Origin: Cenococcum geophilum 1.58
Taxonomy: Eukaryota; Ascomycota; Dothideomycetes; Gloniales; Gloniaceae
Assembly: GCA_001692895.1 (NCBI GenBank)
Contig: KV748191.1
Coordinates: forward strand, 1,984,001 to 2,048,000
Reading direction: 5' to 3'
Length of the DNA: 64,000 nucleotides
The notes below the pieces were generated by a model. It ran no database searches, was not told where the DNA came from, and saw nothing but the letters and a program-made list of their open reading frames with translations. This document shows positions 1-16,274 of this stretch, piece after piece; within the stretch, counting starts at the first letter, position 1, and each line of letters begins with the position of its first letter. Position numbers and translations under genes: made by a program.

Positions 1-1
1 A

Positions 2-1251
2 GATGGTAAGAGATTGCGAGAGTATTCCACTAAAGACCTTCCCGCCTTCTCAGGGAAGCTCCTCCCAGAGTTTGACAAGCGCAGAAGCATCAAGGACATG
101 TTCACGCGCAAGCCTTCTCCAGCGACCAGTAAGAGCAGCATCGAGCTACTTACGTTACCGTCAACAATTGTAGACAGTGCTGGCAACACACCAGAGACGG
201 ACACGGCGAGCACATCTAATGCAGGTTCTGCATCTGCCAGCCAGAATCTAGCCCCGTCATCGACGGCTCGCTCCACTTCAAGTTCGACGGGATCACCTGA
301 GAAGAAGCGTCGTTCGAATGACTCGCAGCCTACAAAACCTGCGAAACGAACGAAGGCATCCTCTAGCTCTTCCAACACAACTGCGACATTGAAAGGTCAA
401 CAATCCCTCAAAGGCTTCTTCAAACCCAAAGCTTCCACCTCCACATCAAGTAACATAGCATCTCTTGGTGCTCTCGAGGAATCTGCATCGAATGGCTCTC
501 CTTTAGAACCTACATTTAATGAGCAGGTGTCTGAAACAGCGGGTCTGACGACAGCTAGCCCTGCTCCTAACACACCAAGATCCTCCCGCAATACCCGCCG
601 CGAAACATCCGATACTCCAACTACTCCTAAGGCTAAACCGTCACCTTCTCCTCTACTTCGCAGTCCTTCCATGCGCTCAGAAGGAATTGATGCCGATTTC
701 ATTGATCCTATAGTCTCGAAAGAATCTTGGACGAAACTCTTCACGAAGAAACCAGCACCGCGTTGCGAGGGGCATGATGAGCCATGCATCACTCTCACTA
801 CCAAGAAGAACGGCGTCAACTGCGGGCGACAGTTCTGGATCTGTCCGAGGTGAGTGATATAATGATAATCAGTCCAATTTTCGCTAGCCCACAAAATGGC
901 GGTTTGGAGAAATTCCTAGGCCATTCTTCTTTCATCTCAAATGCTTTTCATCTATTCCTAGTTTCATGGACCCAACACACCTTCACCCTTCATGTCTTCC
1001 CCACCGCTAGGCAACATTTTAAGTCCACCTTTCCTAGTCGGTCATCTGTCCGCTTTTTAATTCCCATGCGCCTATATTTCTAGTGCATCAATTTACCCTT
1101 TCCTACTACATGCTACACACATCCTTCTTTAACACTAACCTTTCACGTCAACAGACCCCTTGGACCCTCCGGCAACAAAGAAAGAGGAACACAGTGGCGC
1201 TGCTGCACTTTCATTTGGGCCAGCGATTGGAATGGAGGTGGTGGTTCTTAA
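2..1251 (+). CDS. APN2: DNA-(apurinic/apyrimidinic site) endonuclease 2, C-terminal part (5' end outside window)
   Basis: Exons 2-849 and 1155-1251; the 5' part, with the catalytic exonuclease/endonuclease domain, lies before the window. APN2 is a class II AP endonuclease of nuclear base-excision repair. The visible part is a Ser/Thr/Pro-rich linker with a PCNA-interacting box (QSLKGFF, about 390-410) and a C-terminal GRF zinc finger. The finger is split by the intron: CEGH plus GRQFWICPR before it, then RPLGPSGNK and QWRCCTFIWASDW after it. The intron (850-1154, GTGAGT...CAACAG) is long for this window, and joining in phase 2 restores the finger exactly. The protein ends GGGGS. APN2 classically borders the MAT locus in Pezizomycotina, which fits the genes that follow. 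Identification is secure; only the missing 5' end limits it. Confidence 0.95.
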
Positions 1252-2259
1252 TCGTGATGACGACCCTGACTAACTTGTGTCGGCCGCTACTCTATCCGAG
1301 GCATTAAACGAGACGGTCTACAAAGTCCAATATGCTCCACAACCTAACGACTTCTTGCATTGATGTGGAACTTCACAATATTCTGGGCCAGCTAACAATG
1401 ACATTTCTGGACTGTCCGAGGACGGCAGTCCAAAAAGCCTTTTTTTTGCCCTCAATCAAGGGTATCCATCTTATTTAGCCTCGTTATATCAAGGCCGTCG
1501 TCATTTAATGCTGTGAAAGTCCCGGTCTACGAACAAGTGCAGAGTAAAGTGCAAGAGAAAGCAGAACAAGAGGATAGGCTCGCATCATTTCTGAGAACTT
1601 AGGAACGCTCGACGAAATCGGGAGCCAAACATCGGAGCCAAACATCATCGGATCGAGGCGGCAATCGTGTTTCAGCCGCGCTACTAGCCGAACGGAATTA
1701 TGGGTGACAAAACACAGGCCGACAATGAAAGAGCTTGGGCTTGTTGCAAGACTAAAGTGTTGTGGATATACATTCAACACTAAGTCTTTCATTTGTGTCA
1801 GTGGGTTTGGTATGGAATACAGAGATTTGGAGCATCTCAGTGCAGTGGAAAAGAGGCTAAGTGATAATCTCATACTTAAAACAATTATAATCCAATCCTT
1901 CTTCCTCATGCACAATGCTCTGAAATGTTTTGTAGAGTCCTTATTACACCGCTGTTTGTTTTCGCTTCAATGTGTGGTGCAACTAAGATCTTCCACCCTT
2001 GATTCTTGCGCGATAACTGGCCTCGCTCTTGGCGCTGAGGCCTCAATAGGTAAGACCGATTTCGTGAACCATAGCGGAAGTCAGTCCTATATGTGCCCAT
2101 ATCTCCTCAGTATACTCTAGCGAATGATTCAATTCCTCCCCATACCTTCAAGTTGGCTATTTGCATTAGCCCTCTTTGACACATAAGACCCAACCCTATT
2201 TTCATTCATGATTTGGTGGCGTGGCTTCCGTCGATAGTTCGATTCTTCCCCTTTTCTAG
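1252..2259. other. Intergenic, no gene recognised
   Basis: About 1 kb between APN2 and the sugar-transporter relic. Short open frames on both strands (for example minus 1505-1915) show no domain, no splice continuity and no repeated residues. The stretch just before 2260 may hold unrecognisable 5' exons of the relic. Confidence 0.5.
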
Positions 2260-3573
2260 TGCCAATCTACAGCGCCGAAGTAGCTCCGCCGAATATTCCC
2301 GGTGCTATGCTCGCCAACTGGCAACTGGCTGATGCCCTGGGTACGCCTTGACTTCTTTCTGGAACTAAGCGTCGCCTACTGAGACCCAACAAGGATGTTC
2401 CCCGACCCCACAGCTAATATAATCATAATTAGCTATGTCAAGGACATTAGCAAGAGCTGGCAAATCCCTACGAGTACTGTCCTCATCCCTACAATACCTC
2501 TGCTGGTCTTGATCTACCTCATGCCTGGTAGGCTTTTGGCTCTCTCCATGTCCGCAACGGACACAGCTAATAAGAACAAAATCACCGAGGTTCCTGATGA
2601 AACACGGCTATTATAGAAAAGCTTTGGAGTCCTTCTGCATCATCCAACCCACACCGCTGTTGGCTGCCCGAGATCTTATGTATGCACACGCTCAGCTCGA
2701 GGTCGAGAGCCGTTTGATTGAGAAGCGGAAGACAAGTCCTCAAGCGGTCGAGGAACTCCCCGATCTTGGAGACAGGCTTTGGAGTAGCGATATCCAGCAC
2801 GTTCAGGACGGCACAGTTTCAGTCGTTGACAAAGAGGCTGGAGCACGCGAGGTTGGACCCCAGGATAATCCACATACGTACCAGTTCGGCGTTAACGGGT
2901 ATTGGAGACGGCTGAGCCAGCTTTTCTCAGAACCTCGGTGCACAAGAGCTCTCTTAAGCGCGGTTGTAGCGATGATCACGCAGCAGATGACGGGCGTGAA
3001 CACGATCGGTAAGCGTCCCAAGCCCACGCTCAAGCACCCCATTTAACCCTCGCAGCGTTTCTTAGCACGACTGTCTACAAAAACTCTTTTGGCGCCGACA
3101 TCAGTGCTGAAGTTATTGCAAGCGCTGGTTTGGCATTCGGGGCTGCAAACTACATCTTTGGCCTGCCAGCGTACTGGCCCTCGGAAAAATACGGACGCTC
3201 GATCATGTTACCGCCTGGGCCCCCCAATCCGGCCTGGCTGATGCCCGTCTTCGCTTTCTGCTTCAAGATTCCCGACGGTAGCCCCGCACGCACGCCACTT
3301 ATCAGCATCTTCGCTATGATCTTCGTAATGGTGTACTCCCCGACCGGTGGCACGTCCCCTCCCTTGATTAGCGCGGAGGTCTTTCCGCTCGTGACGCGCG
3401 AGGTCGGCGTGGCGGTGAATTTGCTTGGGGCAGGAATCTTGGTGCCGGTGTTTCCTTGGCCGATGAATGCGATTGGAATCACAGGGGCATCGGCCGTCCC
3501 CGCGAGCCGATTCCAAGCCCCCCTATCCGTCACCCCGCATAGCCAATCCCCTTCCATTGCAGGCTGCTCTTAA
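2260..3573 (+). pseudogene. Decayed MFS sugar transporter
   Basis: Pieces of a fungal sugar porter occur in the right order. After a splice-acceptor-like TTCTAG at 2259 comes IYSAEVAPPNIPGAML and NWQLADALG. Then SWQIPTSTVLIPTIPLLVLI at about 2456, KSPRFLMKHGYYRKA at about 2580, QLEVESRL, QQMTGVNTIAFL across a clean intron (3009-3055), and YSPTGG...SAEVFPL...REVGVAV at about 3335-3420. The PESPRFL region cannot be joined without a one-base shift, the loop D-x-x-GRR is altered to SEKYGRS, the N-terminal helices are missing and the C-terminus dissolves into unrelated sequence. Sugar porters are about 500 aa with 12 helices; this would not fold as one. It may alternatively be a divergent gene with odd introns. 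It lies between APN2 and the mating genes, an unusual place for a transporter. Confidence 0.7.
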
Positions 3574-4250
3574 CCCCGTGGCCTTCATATCTACGAAGAA
3601 AATGAGGCTCTATACAAGCACCCTTGATCCAACTTTAATATAGTAGTGATCAGCACTAGGTGGACATCGGGCAACTAACCACACTGATCGCGGTCAAGCC
3701 CCAGTCCCATTATCAGACGCATTTCATACAATACGAATGGTCCTAAGTTGCTTCAGGAGTATTTTCTGCTCTCGGTGCCTCTATCATTTTCATATTTGAT
3801 CTACTGGATATACCCTTAAAGTTCCTACCTCGCCTGAGCCCACGCTGTCTCAGGCCCGTTACCAGACGCATTTAGCTCTATGCAACATACATCAAATAGC
3901 ACTAACAGCACTATTCCATTCTCTTCATATTTATATCAATTTGGGGTGTAATTTCCGAAGAACTGCCAAACCCCTTAGTTTCCGTCCTGGATGTATAAAC
4001 CCCAAAAGATTCCATATCACGTGATTTACAATTCCTCAGAGCAGCCCCCAGATAGTGCCAATAATGCGGTTACATTCTTTCGGTCCTCTTCTACTACCTA
4101 GTCATAAAAGGGACGGAATATACCTGGTGGTGTGGATGGATTCAGTATGTGTCGACCTGGTGTCGATCACCACCACATCAGGGTTAGATATGGGTGCCTA
4201 TGACTCACCCACCTCTTGTATATATCCCTTGATCCGTCAGCGCCCATCTG

Positions 4251-4260
4251 TTATCGATAA
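4251..4260. repeat. TTATCGATAA palindrome (1 of 5)
   Basis: Perfect 10-bp palindrome. Identical copies lie at 4320-4329, 25640-25649, 45516-45525 and 48555-48564. Function unknown. Confidence 0.5.
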
Positions 4261-4319
4261 AGATTCACTATTATTATTGATTGGGTATTTTGTATTTACC
4301 TGTCCGATTGGCTTAAATC

Positions 4320-4329
4320 TTATCGATAA
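4320..4329. repeat. TTATCGATAA palindrome (2 of 5)
   Basis: Second copy, 69 bp from the first. Confidence 0.5.
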
Positions 4330-5164
4330 GAGAATGTCCAATTTTGACGGGTTAAGGGATAGTCTCTCTTCTCCCACAGATTCATCTACACACGAGTTCC
4401 TCATCTAAGTATTTTCTAGTCAACGGTATGGGATTGCCAGCCAAATGGATAGAGTCTTGAGACGGCAACTGAAGATAGCGGCAACGCTGCGTTTTAGCTC
4501 TATCAACACTTTCCCTCTCTCTATTCATAAAAAGGATCATATATATATACTGGCGTAGATGGATTCTGTGTTGCGTTGAAAGATCAATGGTCATGGTTTT
4601 TCGACTAGAAATATCAGATCAGGAACATCGTGTGTCGATTGATCTATGAAGAAAAAGAGACTCTATGCACTCCGCTGACATGGTTGTAGTATGGCAATAG
4701 TAGATTGACGCCACCGAGAATCCAGAGAAAAGAGTAACCATGGCACTCCGTTCTTCTAAACCATTCATACCTTCTGCCCGCAAAAATTTATTGCATTATG
4801 TCCAGGCGTTGTCGAATGGCATGGGTAGTGGCTGAACATCATCATTTTTCGCTCTAGAAAACCTATCCAGGGTTTCGCTCAGGATGAGCAACGAGAGTTA
4901 CCATGATTAAGCTGGGAACGCTTATGCCAGTATGGCCAATGATATCTATCGTGAGAAAAGGAAATAGAAAATCTCAGTCAGACTTGGGCAGTAGATATCA
5001 CAGCTGCAAAGGTGCGATCAAGTCTTTTTTTGAGAGTATGAGGAATTTCTATCTACGTACAAAAGCAAGCAATTGAATCCAATGTTTCAAGCACAGTCCA
5101 GAGAAAAGTTAGTAGGGAAAGCAACATCTAATCCATCTTATCCACGAACCAAGTCCCTCAATTG

Positions 5165-6180
5165 CTAATTGTCATTAAAAAAGTTAAAGAAACGATCAAA
5201 GTCGCTTTCAACGCTGCGGTCGAGGGAAGCCGCGTTAGTGAGTGCAGCAATCTCCTCAATAAGCAGGTCTCCACTAACAGCAGAAGGTGCCGTTCAGCCT
5301 GCGCTAAGACTCCATCCGAGTACTGAAGAGGTTGCATCAAACCTGCCTCTACCGATGATCAGGCTGGAATGCTGGCATGGACTGGTGGCACAGCGGATCT
5401 GCGCGAATGCAACGTCGTTGTTGAAGTCTATTATGCCGTTGTTATTACCAACTAATCCCATAAGCATCTCATTGTTGAGAGCATGGCGGTTCAAAGAGCT
5501 AATTTCAAGTGGTGTGATTTTAATAGATGGCAGGGTGGTTGAGGGCTCGAGCGCAGCTTGATCATTGTGACGATCTGTCATGGATTTCAAGCAGCTCACA
5601 TAGTGGTACCCCGGAGAAATGGCGTATTGTACGTTCGATCTATCAACATATTTTTCGATGTCAAGGTGGTCAACTGTGCCTTCGAGAGGGTACTCGAAAA
5701 AGTTCGCTCGGGATCTCGTCTGGCACAGGAGCCTTCGCAGCACCATGAACAGCTTGGGTGATAATCTTATGCTAACTACGCTTCTTTTGTTCCGGCTTGC
5801 GAGGGTTATATTTATAATCTAGATGATCTTGCGCATGCTCAAGCTTGAGCTTCTTGGCTTTAACGCCCCAGACATCCTTGAAGGCTTTATTCCCATTTCG
5901 CCAATCGCTATTGCGAGCTGGCTATTCTCCTACAACGGATAGTCAGTCAGTGACTAAGTTCAATAGAATTTTCAAAAAGTGATTAAATTCACATAATTCT
6001 TCGTTAAGCATACCAGGATTCTCCACTCCGAGCTGTTTGTGTCTATGCCTATGGCACAAGATCCAGCGGCTACTAATCCGAAGTGCTAAAGTTTGTGGTG
6101 GCTTAAACGTAGTATCAGGAGCCGTACTATCACCATCATTGTTGCTCACCCCGTTGAAGTGAGGGCATAATAGCTTCCTC
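5165..6180 (-). pseudogene. MAT1-2-1: Relic of the HMG-box mating-type gene MAT1-2-1
   Basis: Read on the minus strand. A frame from about 6180 gives CPHFNGVSNND, then a degraded HMG-box start (SSRWILCHRHRHKQL, ENPGMLNEEL). It is followed by an intron-like gap (5992-5930, GTGAAT...TTGTAG) where the conserved HMG-box intron sits in MAT1-2-1. After it, WRNGNKAFKDVWGVKAKK and LEHAQDHLDYKYNPRKPEQK match the end of a mating-type HMG box. Then come APVPDEIPSELFRVPSR and, after a frame change, AQLTTLTSKNMLIDRTYNTP. A last part carries an in-frame TGA at 5294-5296 and ends EEIAALTNAASLDRSVESD...FFNDN and a TAG at 5165. At least three stops fall in the HMG half and one or more frameshifts follow, so no working protein is possible. 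The MAT1-1 context and APN2 flank support a mating-type HMG gene rather than another HMG protein. Confidence 0.8.
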
Positions 6181-6696
6181 GATGCTTTTAGGGAACAAGT
6201 GGTATATATTAATATTTGTGTTTAAATAGATATTCACCCACAACCGGACCAAACGTGAGAAGCGCTCAGCAAGATGGTCAAGACCTTAATCACCGATGGC
6301 CTGAACTGTATTTCCGCGAATAAATAATCCTCCCGATGTCATAATCTAGTTAGCCGAGTGAATCCTGCCAGGGTCGCTTAAGGTGCATCTGACGTTCCTA
6401 AACAAGCAAAGATAGAAGGGGCGGCCATGTTAGTGGTGCGATAAGTCAGATTAGGGCAGAAAGTAATTGACTTTTGCAGAACTAAGTGAACGCAAATGGG
6501 AAGAAGAGTTATGGGTGAGGGATGTGAAAAGTGAGGTTGCTGTGAAGACCAATGACAATGTGCCCGCCTGTTGATTCATCTTTTGCCTGGTGATTTCGAT
6601 CACAAGTTGATTTACCGCCTCCGTTTTTTGTATTTCACTCTCTGCTAATTCTTTTCAAATAATCTTGTCTCTCAAAATATACAAATTTTCTACGAG

Positions 6697-7984
6697 ATGC
6701 CGGAAACAGATACTGGCCTCGAGCTAAATGCCCTCGCTAACCTCACAGCCGATCTCAAACTGAACCTTGCTATTTCTGAGGCTCTTGCAACTCATCCTGG
6801 TCGTGGCGTTATTGATGGTACGTTTGCTAACTAAAACTTAACGTTATAGCTAATGAGGTACGCGTCTAGACCGTAACATAGTGCAACGATCATGCCACTC
6901 GTTATTCCTAAACCATGTGCTCCAGAACTTGGAAAGGATCTTCTACTGTTACGGCCTAAACTTCAATAATACCGGCGAACAATATCATGCCATTCTTTTC
7001 CGTTGGTCTGGACTAGTAATAGCGGAATGTCGACGTCTCCGACAATTCCCCAAGCTCTTTCCTAAGGATAAAGGTTACGTTTCATTCTTTCAACCCGCTA
7101 GCAGGCTCATAGTCCAGATCATTCGAGCAATGGATATAGTGGAAGATTACAGAAATTCTTGGGTTATTGCACGCGAGCAAGAATACGAATCCTGGCGCCC
7201 TAGCTTTGAGCCTAACTTGATGCCATGGGAGCAGTTTCTTTCCAAAGGCATGCCAGGAGTGAAAGTACCTTTCTCATCTTGCTTATCTCCCGGCCAAGAG
7301 CAGTGGGATTTCTCAGTCTTCGGGTCTGCTAGAGATTCCTATCAACAATGCATCCCAGCGGGTGGCGTGGCAATTCTGCGGAGATGGATAGAGCACGCAA
7401 GAGAGCAGGTGGACTGGTTCACAGCTAGGGTATTTTACACCGTAAGTCACGATCTCTAATAGTACTAAAGGCGAGAAATTTAACGAAATTTCCTAACTCA
7501 ACACTTCTAGTCCGGTAGTATTGAAGGGAAACAAGAGGCTGATGGATTTCTCCGAGAGTTTGATAGCAATGTAAGTGATTCTCGAAAGTTATTTGTACGA
7601 TAGTTAATTGGAGAACCTCAACTAATTTTTAGCAGTGCCCTGACCTCGCGAGAAAGTTTGAAGGCGTCTCAATTGAAGATAATCATATAATTGGTCAAAC
7701 TGTAATCAACGCCCAAATTTCTAATCAAATACTGGCTAATCTTTGAAGCTCTTTGCCCATTTCTCTGAGGAAAATGTACCTCAGAGTTATAAACTCCGCC
7801 AAGATCCAAAACTGAGCTTTGTGGAATTAGAAGAATTTGCGAGTAAGTTCAGAAGAGCAATTACAGGTTGGACATGGCTTATATTTAATTCCCTGTAGAT
7901 CAGGTTATAGGAGTTGAGGACGTAGCTAGCGATCCAAACTTTGATGACTACTTTCAGATGGTAATAGTGGCGACTGAGATCTGA
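6697..7984 (+). CDS. Unrecognised accessory gene of the MAT1-1 locus
   Basis: Six exons inferred: 6697-6817, 6882-7441, 7511-7570, 7633-7701, 7749-7842 and 7899-7984, giving 329 aa. The last intron choice is open: splicing at 7961 (after QM) to GATGG at about 8014 would end at a TAG at about 8040. The protein has no signal peptide or membrane segment and is rich in aromatic residues (FYCYGLNF, RWSGLVIAECRRL, WRPSFEPNLMPWEQFL, WIEHAREQVDWF). There is no HMG box or alpha box. It sits about 0.3 kb upstream of MAT1-1-1 on the same strand, the place taken in other classes by accessory genes such as MAT1-1-2 (Sordariomycetes) or MAT1-1-7 (Eurotiomycetes/Lecanoromycetes). The short HPG near residue 37 recalls the MAT1-1-2 HPG motif but proves nothing. 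Intact splice sites and frame indicate a real gene; its function is unknown. Confidence 0.6.
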
Positions 7985-8300
7985 GGGTTCTGGCCTTCAT
8001 ACTTAGCTCTTTAGGATGGTATTCAAAGGCGAACTACGTAGATAATTAGTTACCTAACATGAAGTGGTTCTAAGTGAATGCCCAACGTCCCTTTCGATGT
8101 GAATCGAAATCGCTTTGTAAAATCTAGTGTCTTTGTTGCGGTCCAGCCACTTCTATCTTCAATCTCTCACCAACCCTCTTGTTCGTCAAAGCTCCGAAAC
8201 ACACTGAACAACACCAATCTTTCTTTGTTAATTCTTTGACACGCCGCATTTGTGCGTAGCCTTTCATCATCAAGAACCTTGAACCTCGAAGATTTCCTAG

Positions 8301-9702
8301 ATGGCAGCTCCTACCGCAATTCAAATCCAGCACTTTCTAGTCACCCGCAATGGTCAGCAAATGCAAACACTTCTACAGTCTATCCAAGATCCAGAAGCAC
8401 AGAGAGGGCTTACTGCTTTCATGCTACTCCATCCTCCACCTACTGAAGGCCGTACTACTGCTCCAGGGAAATTGAAAAAGGCCTTGAATTCCTATATGGC
8501 ATTTAGAAGTGAGTTTTCAATTCATCATATACTGTGAAAGCTTTCTTTCGCTAATGAAAACAGGCTACTATTCATGCTGCCCGGAATTCCTTCTCTGGGT
8601 CATGAAGATACTATCAATGGCCATGGCTGTTCTATGGCCGGCAGACCCTTGGAAGCCTAAGTGGACCCTCATTGCTAAAGCATGGTCAGTCATTCGTGAT
8701 GAGGTTGGCAAAGACAATGCGCCTTTGGATGTCTTCCTCTCCATCGTCTGCCCTCTCCTTGGCCTGCTCTCTCCGTCGGAATACATGGATAAGATGGGTT
8801 GGAGTGTTTCTGTTCTTGAGGATGGTCAACCGATCGTTCTTCGAAAGTTTATTCCTGAATTTGACATTGACTCTTTCACAACAACCTTGTCCGTCGAAGA
8901 TCTTGTCAAACACTGCCGCAACATTGGTTACATCGCAAATGTTGCAGGAACTGCCGGCATTCCCTCAGGAATCAGTTCAACAGGTCAATCTTTAACCATG
9001 ATCGCTCACCCCAGCGCAAATGCGGCACGTCTAGCCCAGCGTCGTGCTCGCTGTCAACGAAAACAACAACTCCACTCAGTCCAAGCTACTCAATCAGCTT
9101 CACCAGCTCAATCAGCCTCGCCAGCTCAGTCAAACTCAGCTGCTCTAGCAAGTCAGCAAATTCCGTCAACTCAACTAGCTCAAGAATCTCACCTAACTCA
9201 CGTTGAGTATATGTCTCAGCCAAAAGATGCTGAAGCTCAGTACTTTGACTTTGATTCTTATTCCAAAGAGCCCTTTTCAGAGTTTGAGCTCAACGTCAGT
9301 GAACCGGTCATCGGAGGTCTCTCTGCACCATCCAATATCGATGCATCCTTGCTCACTCTTCCCCAAGATGATGAGGCAATGAGCGCTGGAAACACCGCTT
9401 GGGAATACGAAATCCTTCTTGCACTCAACCAGCACCAGGCGCCGGAGCAACCGCTGGTCTCCGACGAGGACGCTCTTCGCGATAATCCGCTAGCCGAGAC
9501 CTCGATGATTCAAGCGAGTGAGGATGCTTGGGGCCTTGAGATGGGTGTTCCTTACCGCGACCTCTTCAATCCCAACAATGGGGAGTCGCTGGCCTGGAAT
9601 CCTTATGAGGGCGATAAGTTTATTGCATGGGATATCAACGGTGCAAACTCATTCAGAGACTATGACATGTGGATGGAAGGTCGCGATGGCCGCAAGCAAT
9701 AG
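8301..9702 (+). CDS. MAT1-1-1: Mating-type alpha-box transcription factor MAT1-1-1
   Basis: Exons 8301-8508 and 8564-9702, 448 aa. This nuclear transcription factor sets mating identity in ascomycetes and drives pheromone and receptor genes. The MAT alpha box spans about residues 60-125: LNSYMAFR, intron, SYYS, then LWPADPWKPKW and KAWSVIRDEVG. The intron interrupts the serine of AFR-SYYS, the position conserved in MAT1-1-1 genes, and phase-1 joining restores it. After the box the protein is acidic and Ser/Gln/Ala-rich, with a run of SASPAQ-like repeats at about residues 240-280. It ends RDGRKQ. The frame is clean, so the gene looks functional, in contrast to the HMG relic 2 kb upstream. The start at 8301 opens directly into the conserved N-terminal region; no upstream in-frame ATG is needed. 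Confidence 0.93.
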
Positions 9703-10781
9703 GCGAGTTAGTTGTAAGACTTCTGGCGTTGGGTTAGTAACTGACTTTCTCTTCTCTCAGGTTCTCGAAGTCTTCTCGACAAACTTCTACGACAATGAAC
9801 GGCCACTCAAATTAGACTATGGAAAATTTTCTTGCCTTCTGCTTTCTTTGTACATTCAATTACTTGCGAGAGACGAGAATTTGATAGTGACGTGAAATCA
9901 TTTTGGACGGAACTGCCTATCTTGTATGTAGTCACAGATAGATGAATGGGAGTTCATCTTCTATATCTTGGGCCTAAACAACGCCCTCTCATGCTACAGG
10001 TGGTTTTCCTTGTTTCTGGTTGAAAACATCATCCTAACCTTGCTTCGTGGTGGCATGTAGACAATTTCACTAGATAATGTTCGGGGGGACCCTCCCTAAT
10101 GCGGAGGGTGCACTAGCGCCAAAATATCGGAGTTATTTGGGGTCACTGGCATACGAGGGCGCAAAAACAGGGTAATACATCGGATCAGATAAGTCATCAT
10201 TGTCTGTTGTTCCGGATCGGGAAAAGCCCTCCTCGGCAACACTCTTAACCCCTGCTCATATCCCCCTTGCTGTTCCGCCCTTGCTGTTCCTTGACACCTT
10301 TTCAGGTCTCTACTGCAATTGCTTTGGATGCAATACCGCCATGCCTGCTAGAAGAGCTAGTTGTTAAGTTTCATATATCTTTTGTCTTATCCCTAGTCGT
10401 ATCATACTGCTGGAAGGCTTCTGGAAGGGAGGGCAGGCTAACTAATCTACTTGATGTCATACATGGCTCTACCGGCTCGATCGTGCAAAAGCGATTTCAT
10501 GATACTGAAGATAGGCTCCTAGTAATAGGTGTTTAGGATAGGATCGAAACAAATTGCCACTATTTTCAATGTGTCATTTGAACTTCCAAATCCGCTGTGG
10601 TGACGCTCGAACATTATCGCAGTCTGTGATAAGCTCGACGCTCGCTAAGCTGAGATGTGGCAGCTCCAGCCTTGTCTGTTCAAAACACCCAGAACGTCGC
10701 ACCGCCACATCCCAGCTTCGCGCAAATGCAGATGCTAATGCGGGCGGCTGATTGTAAACTTAATACTCCCCTTCTACAGCG
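9703..10781. other. Intergenic, no gene recognised
   Basis: Between MAT1-1-1 and the NVJ2-like gene. The open frames at 10267-10536 and 10554-10751 have no recognisable domain and no splice logic. SLA2, the usual right flank of the MAT locus, is not here. Confidence 0.5.
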
Positions 10782-13700
10782 ATGGTAACAGTCTCCGCCT
10801 TCGTCTTCATCTACGTCTTAGGTGGCCTTACCTTCGTTCCACTCCTCCTCGCCGCGATCCTATGCCATGCCTACTTGACCTTTCCTGCGTGGGACTCGCA
10901 AGTATCTACCGATGCCTCGAGTAAAGGTGCAACTCAAGGACATGCTGCTAGCGGTGACACCTTCAAATCCGAGCTAGACAGTCTTCCAGATGAACTCAAA
11001 CCCCGCTCCCATGAGCCGGACGTTGCAGCTGGATACTTTGCGGTATGCCGAGAGTATGTACCTGGAGGTGTAAATGGGAAACCACCGGAAAGGACCACAC
11101 CTGCCGGGGCGGTGGTAGCAGCAGAGAGCCCGAGTGTTTATCAGAGCATGTATAGAAGCATATTCGATCGTAACAAACTGCAAACACCGACACTGGATGG
11201 TGGGAATGGGAAGGCCAAGAAGGCGCGAAACGTGTTCTTTGTCGTTCTCAGGTTCGTGGGACCGCCCCAGGGAACACCGCGCTACCTACAATGAGACTAA
11301 TTATTGTGTAGGCACGGCCATCTTATGCTATATGACGACGTCGAGCAACTCGAAGTCCGACATGTAATCGCACTCGCCCACTACGATGTAGATATTTATG
11401 CCGGAGGGGAAAATATACCAGAGGGAGAATTATGGATAAAACGGAACTGCATTAGATTGACGAGGAAGAGGTTATTTGGGGACATCGGACCCTCTGATCC
11501 AAAGCCTTTCTTCATTTTCTCTGAGAACTGCTTCGAGAAAGAGGATTTCTACCATGCGCTATTGCAAAACCAAGAACGCCAGCCGGGTTCTCCAGGAAGC
11601 CCGCCTACACCCTTACATTTTGAGACTGCTCATCTCGTTAAACTAGTTCAGCAGCTTCATGCTTCCGAGGAAAATCTCCAGACCCGCTGGATCAATGCAT
11701 TAGTGGGAAGGCTGTTTCTCGGATTGTATAAAACATCCGATGTTGAAGACTTCATCCGAATGAAAATTACGAAGAAGATTGCTCGTGTCCCGAAACCTGC
11801 ATTTATTAATAGCATAAAGCTGCAGAAGATTGATATGGGAGATTGTGCACCCTTCATAACAAACCCAAAGTTAAAAGAGTTGACTGTGGACGGAGACTTA
11901 ACGATCGAAGCCGATGTTAAGTACAAAGGCAACTTCCGACTCGAGATCGCAGCTGTTGCTCGTATTGAGCTTGGACGCTTCAAAGCTCGTGAGGTCAATC
12001 TGATCCTAGCTGGAATTCTGAAAAAACTTGGAGGCCATATCCTGATTCGAATCAAGCCACCTCCAAGCAACCGGCTGTGGATATCCTTTGAGACAGTGCC
12101 CAAGATGGACATGTCGATTGAACCCATAGTAAGTTCCCGCCAGATCACATACGGCGTGATTCTCCGAGCGATCGAAAGTAGAATCAGGGAGGTTCTAGCT
12201 GAAACACTTGTCTTACCGAACTGGGATGACATACCATTCCATGATACAATGTTACAGCGTTTCAGAGGCGGCATATGGGCAGACGATGTCAAAGTCGGGC
12301 CGATCCCGGATCGTCAAACCGAAGCTGCCGAACACGGCCTTGTTGATCAAGTCGACAAGGATTCAGAGTCAGACGAATCCGAGCCTCTGCCTGCACCGAA
12401 TTTGAGTATAAAGGACAAGATGATGAGCATGCCCAGTCTCGTTGACACGCCTCCAACCGGACTGACCCCGCGAAAGGCTGCGAAGTCAACAATTTCTCTA
12501 GATGGCAATGGTGAGAGGGTAGCAACTTCGTCTGGGGCTGAAGTGAGGCCCTCATCAAAACCAAAAGCGATCAGGTCTGGCTCTTTTGCAAGCGCCGCCA
12601 CTCCAATAGTGAACATGGACCCAGCGACCGTCGAGGCTTTGCGAATCCAAGCACGAAAGGGCCATCAAGATGCTGCGAGTGCGATGAAGGTCATTTCTTC
12701 ACGCTCTCAACCGACATCTCCAGCTGAATCTCCAGTCGGCTCTCCTTCCCAACCTAGTCTGATAGCGCGGGCAGTTAAAAAGGATAGCCTTTCTTCAATG
12801 GCCTCTTCTCAAGCTTCTAAAGAAGATTCCCAAACACTCCCCGACTCAGCTTCCTCCATATTCCTCCCTTCCTCATCCCCAAGCAGGCAGTCAACGATGG
12901 CTAGCCTAGCAAGCAACCCGGATACTGCTTCTACTACTAGCAGCACTCAAACTAAGCCAAGACATACGCCTTCCCTCTCCGCGGCTAAAAACGCTCTTGC
13001 GTCCCCAGAGAAACGGCAATCGATAGCAGCAGCTGCCAAAATGTGGTTTGCGAACAGGCAACACGGCTTATCCTCCGCTTCGCCCTCTCAGAGTCCTTTC
13101 TCTGTTCACCAATCCTCCGTCTTCTCTACCTCTAAAGATAATCTTGCACCGACCACTGCTACCGCATCCACATCCCAACCCTCTCTTCTTGATCAATCTC
13201 CACAGGATACGGAAACTCTCGCCTCTCTCGGTTCCCCTGCGTACCCAATTGGCCGTGGTCAGCCTTTACCACCACCGGGTACGCCGCTACCTCTCCCACC
13301 TAAGCCGGAAAAGCGGACTGCTAGCTGGAGCACGGCTGGCGCATCTGCACTGGCGAGCCTGGCGAAAAGGAAACCCGTTCCGCCGCCCAGACAAGCTACT
13401 GCTGCTGTATCTTCCACACAAACGCCGGTACATCCTGCGTCACCACCACCACCTAAGGAGCCTCTAGCACATCAAGAGAACAAACTTGTAGAAACACCGC
13501 AGCCCCTGCAGCGCAAACTCTCTTCTACTCACTCTGTTCCCCTGCCCCCTCTGCCGCCGCGTAGAAAGCGCCTGTCCAACGCTGAGACAGGGACACAAGG
13601 TTTGGGGGCAGACGAGGGCTTACTGGTTGTAGAGGCACCGGTAGCGGATATTAGTGCACCACCTAGTCCGATGGAAGAGCGGAATTTCGAAGAGCAGACG

Positions 13701-14039
13701 AAAAACGGTAGTAATGAAGGGGATGAAGAGCACATTGACGATGAAATTGAACAAGGTGACACTGGCGTGTTCCAGGCAATGGATATGGATGATTATGACG
13801 ATAGGTCTGGGACGAACGAAGTTGAATCTGATATCCGAATGGGAGCAGCGCATGAGATGGATGATCGGAAACATGGCATATCCGGGCAAGCAGACTCTGC
13901 GCACGAATATAAAGAGCAGAAGAGCGGCAGTACTCAATACGACAAAGAATTATACGAGAGATCGCAGAGGGAGCTCGTCGATGAAAAAATCAGCGACAGG
14001 GATAGTTTGAAAATGTTGGAGGAGTTGGCAGGACGGTGA
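10782..14039 (+). CDS. NVJ2: NVJ2-like membrane-contact-site lipid-transfer protein (PH + SMP domains)
   Basis: Exons 10782-11251 and 11312-14039, 1065 aa. An N-terminal membrane anchor (about residues 5-30, FVFIYVLGGLTFVPLLLAAI) is followed by a PH-like region (VFFVVLRHGHLMLYDD, about 150-270). An SMP lipid-binding region follows at about 300-480 (WINALVGRLFLGLYKT, FINSIKLQKIDMGDCAPFI, ELTVDGDL). Last comes a long disordered tail rich in Ser, Pro and Thr with polyproline stretches and an acidic end. In yeast, Nvj2 sits in the ER at nucleus-vacuole junctions and helps move ceramide between ER and Golgi. The intron splits the Arg of VLRHGHL and joining restores the PH strand. The neighbouring MAT locus is linkage only, not a functional tie. 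Confidence 0.85.
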
Positions 14040-16274
14040 TCAATCACGATTTTTGCCCAACTCTTCCTCAATATCTCATCGTTTCTTGTGTTGCTTCACA
14101 GGAGTATTGTGGTGTTAATGCATATTTCTGCGAAAGAGCGGATGGGCGGGATGCTGTAGACTTGCTAGGCGTTTTGTAGACTTGTCGTGGGCATAGGCAC
14201 ATGCATGAAATGAGCAAGGGTCTGGTAAAGGAAATCTTGTGGCATCTATATCTGAAATATTAACACCTTCATCGCATCCACTTTCAGCCATGAATGCTAA
14301 ATATACACTGCAAAGAAGTTTTCGACTCCCTTTCCTATAAAAATACACTTGCCCCCTCCTCCAAAACTCATTCACCACGCGAAAACATATAACCCGACAG
14401 CAAAAAATTTAGCTCCCAGCTCTCGGACTTATCATCTAATGGATTCAGCATCTATCTCCTCCCGAACGTAATGCCTTAGACCCAGCCCCGAGACATCAAA
14501 AGCCATGCCTCTGCATCAACCCGACTGTGTAGAAAGTCAACACACCTCACCTCCCGCATAGAGCTTCATAATGGCTGACTACATGGAAAGTAGCGGCCAA
14601 GGACACTAAACCCTAGATAAGCTATCGGATTTGCTGATGAACAGGAGGAGAAAAGCACTGAAAAGCGCCAGTCCAAGCCGAAAGAGGAATTGGACTGTCC
14701 AGACAGGAGAAAAGAGTAGATTTGCGCTGAGGCGCACGGACTTTGACATGCTATCGATCAGCCACATCGCTAGGCAGCATGTGCGTAATGGTTGACTGAG
14801 CGCAGGGGCTGAATCGGGAAGAGGCGGACTTGCCGCTTCTTTGAGCACGCAGGTTTACAAGGCAACCCCAGCTGTAGTCTCTGAATCTCCTATTCCTCTT
14901 GTCCTTTCTCAGTATCTCCAGGCATGTCCTCCTCAGCTCCTCCCTCTCCCTTCCCTGCGGCGCGCGATGGAAGGATCGCTTTAACGGACGAGGATAAATT
15001 TGGCTGGACACAAACACGCCCCAGCACATCTGGGGGCAATATCTGGAGTAGGGGGCACGGGCACAACAAGCGTTGGATGGGAACTTGAAGAAAGCTGGGG
15101 GATACCTTTGGACAAGGACGGTCGAGGAAATTTACGATAGTCATTCTCGAAATGCACACACGCAATGTAGGATTAAAAACCAGTAGCGGTACAATCGCAT
15201 TCTTGTATTCCGCAGTCTAGATTCTACCTTCCACCTTGAGGGAATAAGAGATGATTTTAAAGAGACGAGGAAGCTCATGGAAGGTAAGACGAGAGAGATA
15301 TAGAGAGTAACACGGTGGGGGTAGCAGAGCGAACTCCTCTCTCCCCAAAATAGATCTCCTCTCTCGCTCTTTTAGCTCGCGATACCACCACTAATGCGCA
15401 CCCATCGCCTTCTGCCACCCAACACTGCCATTTGCGCATCGTTGTTAGTTCAGCACGGGCGTAGTATTCACCATTCGCTCCATCCATTAATTGATAAGCC
15501 CAACCCAGTTCCTTCCCACTTGAGCAGCTAATACAGCTCTTCGCCAACCCCATCACGAGCCAAAAGCACGCCATGAGACCGAAAACGCGTACTCCGTAGG
15601 GCCAATGCAGGGGCAGGCCAGGAAATAATAACCGGAAAGACGGGGAATTTATTCAACGTAGCAGAGAAGATGGACAAGGCGGAACAAGAACACGCAGGAC
15701 GACCGCTATACCAAATAAGACCCTCGGTTGGAAGAGGATATTAAAAGAAGCAAAGCAACGCACATAACAACTAAAGATTCTCAACTCTAAGTAACGTCGG
15801 GCACCCTGAGGTCGAATAGTCTTTGTGATGTGATCATGACGGGTCATTCATCCTCGCGGGCCTTTGCAGTCTGGGTTGCGTTTTCGGGTAAGAAATGGAA
15901 ACAGATATCCACCCAAAATACGGCAATGAATGTTATAATCCATGTGTGCAAAGGAACAAGAAAGGATATAGAAAGAGTAGAGTGCGGAGTTTAGAGAGAG
16001 TTAGACTCTGAGCGAGGTGGAGACAAAAGGCAGGAATATAGGATATATGATGGATGGAAGGATGAACGTTGTGAGTTATGATCATCAAGAATTTCGTCGG
16101 ACTTCGTCAAGATTCGTGGGCCGCGTCGATAGTTATGCACATGCATAAACAAATAAGAAGAGTTCGGTAAACGCCGTGCTCATTTTCGCTAAATGGCGCA
16201 GAGAGACCTCCTAGGAGAGTCGTTTAATATGTTGGTTTAGGGTGATGTGTCGAGTCGGACGGACTAATCGCATG
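14040..16274. other. Intergenic, about 2.2 kb
   Basis: Probably the 3' ends of the NVJ2-like and otubain genes plus spacer, since the two genes converge here. Apart from a possible 54-codon frame (14924-15088) I see no coding signal. Minus-strand open frames such as 14751-15029 show no domain. Confidence 0.45.
14924..15088 (+). CDS. Possible small protein, 54 aa
   Basis: An ATG-to-TGA frame starting MSSSAPPSPFPAARDGR and ending HNKRWMGT. It is hydrophilic, with no signal peptide or membrane segment. A pyrimidine-rich stretch and AG precede the ATG, so it might also be a 3' exon. Support is only its composition and the otherwise empty 2.2-kb gap. It may well be chance. Confidence 0.22.
   Translation: MSSSAPPSPFPAARDGRIALTDEDKFGWTQTRPSTSGGNIWSRGHGHNKRWMGT

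Follow-up and report, generated by a model that had tools for sequence, protein, structure and literature searches.

The mating-type (MAT) locus of Cenococcum geophilum strain 1.58 lies towards the left end of the window, by which we mean the whole 64,000-nt stretch of contig KV748191.1 that was analysed, and its features are listed in Table 1. The left flank is formed by APN2: its C-terminal zinc finger, at the window's left edge, scored 24.1 bits, just below the Pfam cut-off of 25.9, and the body of the gene was found just left of the window (PF03372 at 8.1e-10). ANAPC5 also lies to the left of the locus (1.5e-35). On the right flank is a gene for a PH-domain membrane protein, whose PF10296 match we take to be the former DUF2404. 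The domain PF04769 (MATalpha_HMGbox) was found once in the genome at E <= 0.001, in MAT1-1-1, and a relative of this gene, P0006, from metagenome-type sources, is 96% identical over 82% of the query. No Pfam family matched the candidate gene preceding MAT1-1-1, even with the threshold relaxed to E = 10; it is probably a MAT1-1 gene specific to the idiomorph. The remains of a sugar transporter lie at 2513-3573 (plus strand), between APN2 and the MAT genes; the transporter looks broken and is read in two overlapping frames with PF00083 at 1.2e-7 and 0.057.

Table 1. Features of the MAT locus of C. geophilum 1.58, in positions of the window
Feature	Position	Strand	Basis
APN2, C-terminal end, one intron (left flank)	1..1251	+	GRF zinc finger; end and intron placed by eye
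APN2-side DNA beyond the relic stop, also beyond the stops of P0004 and P0005	5052..5108	-	tblastn
Putative MAT1-2-1 pseudogene (relic), near full length	5165..6418	-	Frameshift-tolerant alignments to P0003 and P0002; tblastn with P0002 to P0005; genome search with P0002
HMG box, second half, run WRNGNKAFKDVWGVKAKKLKLEHAQDHLDYKYNPRKPEQKK	5783..5917	-	Peptide reading, tblastn, frameshift-tolerant alignment
HMG-box intron, 75 nt (GTGAAT...CAG), 3' end uncertain	5918..5992	-	Splice sites of the P0001 model
HMG box, first half, strongly eroded	5994..6083	-	Aligned with P0003 residues 115-144; three-way count with P0004 gives 12 relic-only changes in 25 sites
Candidate gene between relic and MAT1-1-1, spliceable to a 333-aa open frame	6697..7984	+	Splice model by eye
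MAT1-1-1 (alpha-box), intact, one intron at about 8509-8563	8301..9702	+	PF04769 at 5e-32
PH-domain membrane protein gene (right flank)	10764..14039	+	PF15413 at 2.6e-8, PF10296 at 1.1e-5

The locus also holds a broken HMG mating-type-like gene, referred to here as the relic, which carries lesions and occurs in a single copy. The first-pass annotation had placed it between APN2 and an intact alpha-box gene, and both neighbours are borne out, by PF03372 for the body of APN2 and by PF04769 for the alpha-box gene. In frameshift-tolerant alignments the relic was identical to the intact relative P0003 at 267 of 409 aligned positions (intron columns counted) and to P0002 at 251 of 387, with the same stops. 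Along P0003 the alignment runs from 6418 to the last residue before a TAG stop at 5165-5167; the observation first made is thus real, but the span then proposed, 5165 to 6180, is too short by 238 bp at the 5' end. When P0002 to P0005 were compared by tblastn with positions 1-16000 of the window, the relic was covered in three minus frames, and the three HMG peptides originally quoted were all found on the minus strand in one frame. Where P0002 has its first methionine the frameshift-tolerant alignment gives a leucine in the relic.

Six stop codons lie on the path of the relic along P0003 (6400, 6352, 6288, 5945, 5924 and 5774), four of which (6400, 6352, 6288 and 5774), all exonic on this path, are certain lesions. 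The TGA and two TAG codons that the first-pass annotation had counted as damage do occur, at 5945, 5924 and 5774, but the TGA at 5945 is no lesion because it lies inside the HMG intron, and the exonic status of the stop at 5924 depends on which 3' splice site is chosen. The frameshifts it had also reported are there, six of them by the alignment to P0003 (6346, 6147, 5705, 5386, 5357 and 5295), together with a gap of 30 nt (10 residues) near 5330 relative to P0003; the exact lesion count varies with the alignment path and the penalties.

A public gene model covers this DNA: P0001 (V2W45_1470223), a C. geophilum "hypothetical protein" of 274 aa, can be read letter for letter from the relic DNA with six introns of 42, 64, 75, 24, 34 and 114 nt, this splicing being the solution with fewest introns among others that are possible. 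The 75-nt intron is the natural HMG intron, and the 24- and 34-nt introns at lesions indicate that the automatic model stepped over stops and frameshifts. It could be argued from the existence of the model, and from its exons all being joinable with GT...AG ends, that P0001 is a living gene of new shape, spliced around the lesions. The introns of 24, 34 and 42 nt, however, fall on frameshifts and stops, and the HMG box of the model stays below the Pfam cut-off (21.1 against 25.4 bits), so that we regard a living gene as highly improbable and V2W45_1470223 as very probably an annotation artefact and no gene. Assembly errors as the source of the lesions were considered and put aside, since P0001, probably from another assembly, can be read from this DNA around the same lesions, a comparison that is no independent check if both assemblies come from the same raw data.

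In the genome (177,193,698 bases in 162 contigs) the relic DNA occurs once, and neither a DNA search nor a search with P0002 at E <= 1 found a second copy. The latter gave six matches, four of them segments of the relic itself (6.1e-56, 3.2e-31, 3.8e-9 and 2.0e-5) and the other two weak HMG matches elsewhere (0.002 and 0.005), so that the likeness of the relic to P0002 goes far beyond chance. PF00505 was found six times in five places at E <= 0.001, the relic not being among them, and the translation of one of these places (L001) is NHP6-like in appearance. Another (L003, positions 1501-1704, plus strand; G000:C29:362801-363004) is an HMG-box gene with an open frame of 437 codons and PF00505 at 7.2e-8, and is the nearest match of P0002 in the genome outside the relic (0.002).

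When the relic was read through, with X at the stops, a protein search gave five matches at E <= 0.001 from 1556 candidates, namely P0001 to P0005; non-mating HMG proteins (for example Ste11-like or NHP6-like), which as best matches would have spoken against the first-pass reading, were not among them. The intact relatives P0002 to P0005 are 404-430 aa long, all lie above the Pfam HMG_box cut-off (66.8, 47.5, 48.9 and 52.3 bits), and the box of P0002 is nearest to SOX and SRY among solved structures. A Pfam scan of single pieces of the relic gave no match; joined over the intron, the box gave PF00505 at 5.6e-4 and 20.7 bits, below the cut-off of 25.4, as expected of a box in this eroded state. 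The intron falls after NEEL in the relic, at the same place in P0003, and is spliced out of P0002. This place is one that we take to be typical of MAT1-2-1. HMG introns are conserved, according to an excerpted account of the Botryosphaeriaceae (PMC8905617). The intron stretch of P0003 is unspliced and in frame, with 13 of 22 translated positions identical to the relic.

A search with the HMG region of P0002 for proteins named MAT1-2-1 returned, from 18 candidates, P0002 to P0005 and one Periconia protein, none of them so named, and no match bore that name; the unnamed HMG protein of Periconia digitata resembles them only in the box (43 of 83 residues). Against NCBIfam, P0002 and P0003 had no match and P0001 had one that is due to chance, and among viral contigs scanned for relatives of P0002 three stretches fitted a pattern, none of them confirmed. 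The HMG boxes of the intact relatives, the likeness to SOX and SRY, the kept intron and the locus nevertheless agree with the original proposal of a MAT1-2-1 gene in a MAT1-1 locus, and on the HMG box, structural likeness and locus we infer the intact relatives to be MAT1-2-1. Of the 38 HMG sites common to P0002 to P0005 and P0010, 28 are retained in the relic, compared with 23 among the 39 remaining HMG sites; this trace of constraint, which may predate its death or be owed to the position of the sites, counts against the explanation that we favour below.

The open intron of P0003 is an observation in its own right: it corresponds to residues 145-166, and an unspliced transcript would add an insert of 22 residues to the HMG box, though this may be no more than an intron missed in gene calling.

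The relic is not equally close to its intact relatives along its length. The comparison, made with the protein sequences of P0002 and P0003, used 382 sites, with stops, frameshifts, gaps and intron columns left out. In bins of 40 residues from 5' to 3', identity to P0002 and P0003 was 0.41, 0.49, 0.44, 0.60, 0.74, 0.82, 0.69, 0.82, 0.87, 0.93 and 0.92, a match to either being scored as an identity, a rule that tilts the values somewhat in favour of the relic, most where those two differ; P0002 against P0003 was about even over the same bins (0.95, 0.90, 0.90, 0.85, 0.95, 0.95, 0.97, 0.88, 0.82, 0.89 and 0.88). On the 346 sites invariant between P0002 and P0003 the trend gave r = 0.37, a value that none of 10000 permutations and none of 10000 block permutations reached, and a single change-point fell at position 5903 of the window, with an identity of 0.45 before it and 0.83 after it. 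A three-way count of unique changes, which is free of the either-match bias, gave ratios of relic to P0002 to P0003, from 5' to 3', of 70:2:4 (141 sites), 6:1:1 (41), 19:2:2 (84), 8:7:1 (62) and 4:2:4 (last 54), with a Fisher p of 0.0003 between the first and last parts. With P0004 in place of P0002, and left out beyond residue 364 since its C-terminal end is called in another frame, relic-only changes numbered 54/105, 12/25, 6/41, 18/84 and 9/62. A single death followed by even decay is unlikely, because the relic is old at its 5' end and at its 3' end no more changed than the intact relatives are. The young 3' part is no poorer in frameshifts than the rest: four of the six (5705 to 5295) sit there, together with the 30-nt gap. 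This counts against exchange, which would have to be old enough for them to gather, or short-tracted. Repeat-induced point mutation is not claimed for the relic because the dinucleotide indices are unremarkable (TpA/ApT of 0.79 in the relic and 0.81 in the whole window; second index 1.36 against 1.21).

Some of the DNA beyond the stop could also be compared, because in P0004 and P0005 the gene call ends in other frames and so runs on into the DNA downstream of their stop. The mis-called tail of P0004 matches window positions 5108-5052 at 17 of 19 residues, and the tail of P0005 is a second frame of the same place; if both tails stem from the same DNA, the flanks differ at no fewer than 3 and no more than 11 of 57 nt. 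Against a background of 65%, 17 of 19 has a binomial probability of 0.017, which alone is modest evidence for better preservation of the flank than of the gene, and the flank is only 57 nt long. Since the tails match the flank of the relic, the intact copies appear to share its 3' neighbour, lying at the same place and in the same orientation beside the APN2-side flank.

We think it likely that the relic is a dead allele of MAT1-2-1 on the MAT1-1 chromosome, lying at the border of the idiomorph, with a 3' end refreshed by exchange. A full-length relic of the opposite type in a MAT1-1 locus would imply an ancestor with both mating genes on one chromosome, the HMG gene next to the alpha-box gene. 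The HMG gene would later have lost its function on the MAT1-1 chromosome and decayed there through point changes and small insertions and deletions, while staying alive on the other chromosome type; the intact copies would accordingly be the MAT1-2-1 of MAT1-2 strains of the C. geophilum species complex. With recombination blocked in the core of the idiomorph the 5' part would have diverged freely, and the 3' end, which adjoins the shared APN2-side flank, would now and then have been replaced through crossovers or gene conversion involving the living allele. Such replacement from time to time would be the reason why the 3' end is nearly the same as the living allele, and it is to exchange of this kind that the identity gradient appears to be due. 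The narrower proposal, that the border of the MAT1-1 idiomorph crosses the dead gene, so that the living allele keeps refreshing the 3' end through the APN2 side and the 5' end is frozen, is tentative, and we put it a little short of an even chance.

As to the source of the two-gene chromosome, the dead-allele explanation can be read in more than one way. The ancestor may have been homothallic, with both genes joined at MAT since ancient times, and the loss reciprocal, as in the Botrytis model, MAT1-1 strains having lost MAT1-2-1 and MAT1-2 strains MAT1-1-1. This sub-reading, to which we give an even chance, agrees with the full length of the relic, with the compact order of APN2, relic (minus strand), candidate gene and MAT1-1-1 (both plus strand), in which 278 bp separate the 5' end of the relic from the next gene, and with homothallic Botryosphaeriaceae that, in the excerpted text, have both genes at one locus with similar flanking genes (PMC8905617). 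If the ancestor was instead already heterothallic, an unequal crossover between the idiomorphs could have moved MAT1-2-1 and the APN2-side flank onto the MAT1-1 chromosome, where the gene then decayed. That event would likewise leave a relic beside a shared flank, and excerpts of work on Grosmannia propose it for the mirror case, in which the MAT1-2 idiomorph holds a truncated MAT1-1-1 (PMC3583454), but it requires one extra event and no junction mark was seen at 4000-11500, where the search for junction or switching repeats gave eight short direct families and three inverted pairs, all weak; we consider it possible, though a lesser prospect.

Two further explanations were weighed. The young 3' part might owe its state to constraint, from a regulatory stretch or an overlapping gene, and a plus-strand open frame of 130 codons does overlap 5169-5561, next to which the retention of some conserved HMG sites (28/38) could be cited. 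Nothing marks this frame as a gene, however, and the frameshifts of the 3' part and its 30-nt gap relative to P0003 show that it is under no constraint to encode MAT1-2-1, which leaves constraint unlikely. For a chance insertion at MAT, by retrocopying or by transposition of a MAT1-2-1 duplicate, nothing speaks beyond the mere presence of a dead copy; this is disfavoured because the intron is kept and the downstream flank is that of P0004 and P0005, and we rate it the least probable of all the readings considered here.

If the border of the idiomorph does cross the dead gene and the living allele refreshes its 3' end, the divergence profile would mark where recombination stops in a fungus in which sex has not been seen, and would be molecular evidence of contact and recombination between the MAT1-1 and MAT1-2 chromosomes of Cenococcum. 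The age gradient would then serve as a direct genomic test of mating-type recombination that does not depend on seeing a fruiting body. Homology between the relic and the living allele could now and then rebuild chromosomes with two genes. In practical terms, PCR tests whose target lies in the 3' part of MAT1-2-1 could give a product from the relic when applied to MAT1-1 strains.

Peter et al. 2016 gave "one intact mating-type gene" for C. geophilum strain 1.58 (PMC5023957), and to judge by the excerpted passages the MAT locus of that paper is very probably the one studied here. The word "intact" suggests that a gene that is not intact was seen, so that the relic may already have been glimpsed, although neither the relic and its extent nor the gradient is described in the same passages (PMC5023957). 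In the portions of a 2025 review on which we draw, Dauphin et al. 2021 are cited as having confirmed heterothallism in C. geophilum through MAT1-1 and MAT1-2 idiomorphs, and as having found rearrangements around them (PMC11799279). No description of this relic or its gradient was found in the excerpted texts of PMC11799279, PMC5023957 and PMC8905617, all of which mention Cenococcum and MAT1-2, nor in the titles and opening lines of abstracts among the matches listed in wider literature searches, and in a mating-type literature search for Glonium stellatum that name was absent among the matches listed.

The flanks resemble those of the Botryosphaeriaceae, in which APC5 and APN2 lie on one side and a membrane protein of the PH plus DUF2404 type on the other; in the parts available of that account, homothallic species have both genes and heterothallic ones are reported with one, and the word "pseudogene" is absent from the main text (PMC8905617). 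Grosmannia and its relatives also have an eroded gene of the opposite type inside the idiomorph, but as the mirror case, with an alpha gene in MAT1-2 whose box is deleted, and the remnant in Grosmannia is, from the excerpted text, free of stops and expressed (PMC3583454). In Botrytis cinerea, as described in the excerpts at hand, fragments of the opposite MAT gene border both idiomorphs, which are flanked by APN2, with a MAT1-2-1 remnant at the MAT1-1 border and a reciprocal relic at the other (PMC3158057). The likeness to Botrytis-type loci suggested by the first-pass annotation therefore stands for the presence of an opposite-type relic at MAT, but only in kind, since the remnants in those excerpts have neither start codon nor MAT domain, whereas the Cenococcum relic spans the whole gene, box and intron included, with small lesions (PMC3158057). 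A relic of the opposite type is thus of a known kind and the Cenococcum case is new or nearly so, while the identity gradient is new and is the part worth following.
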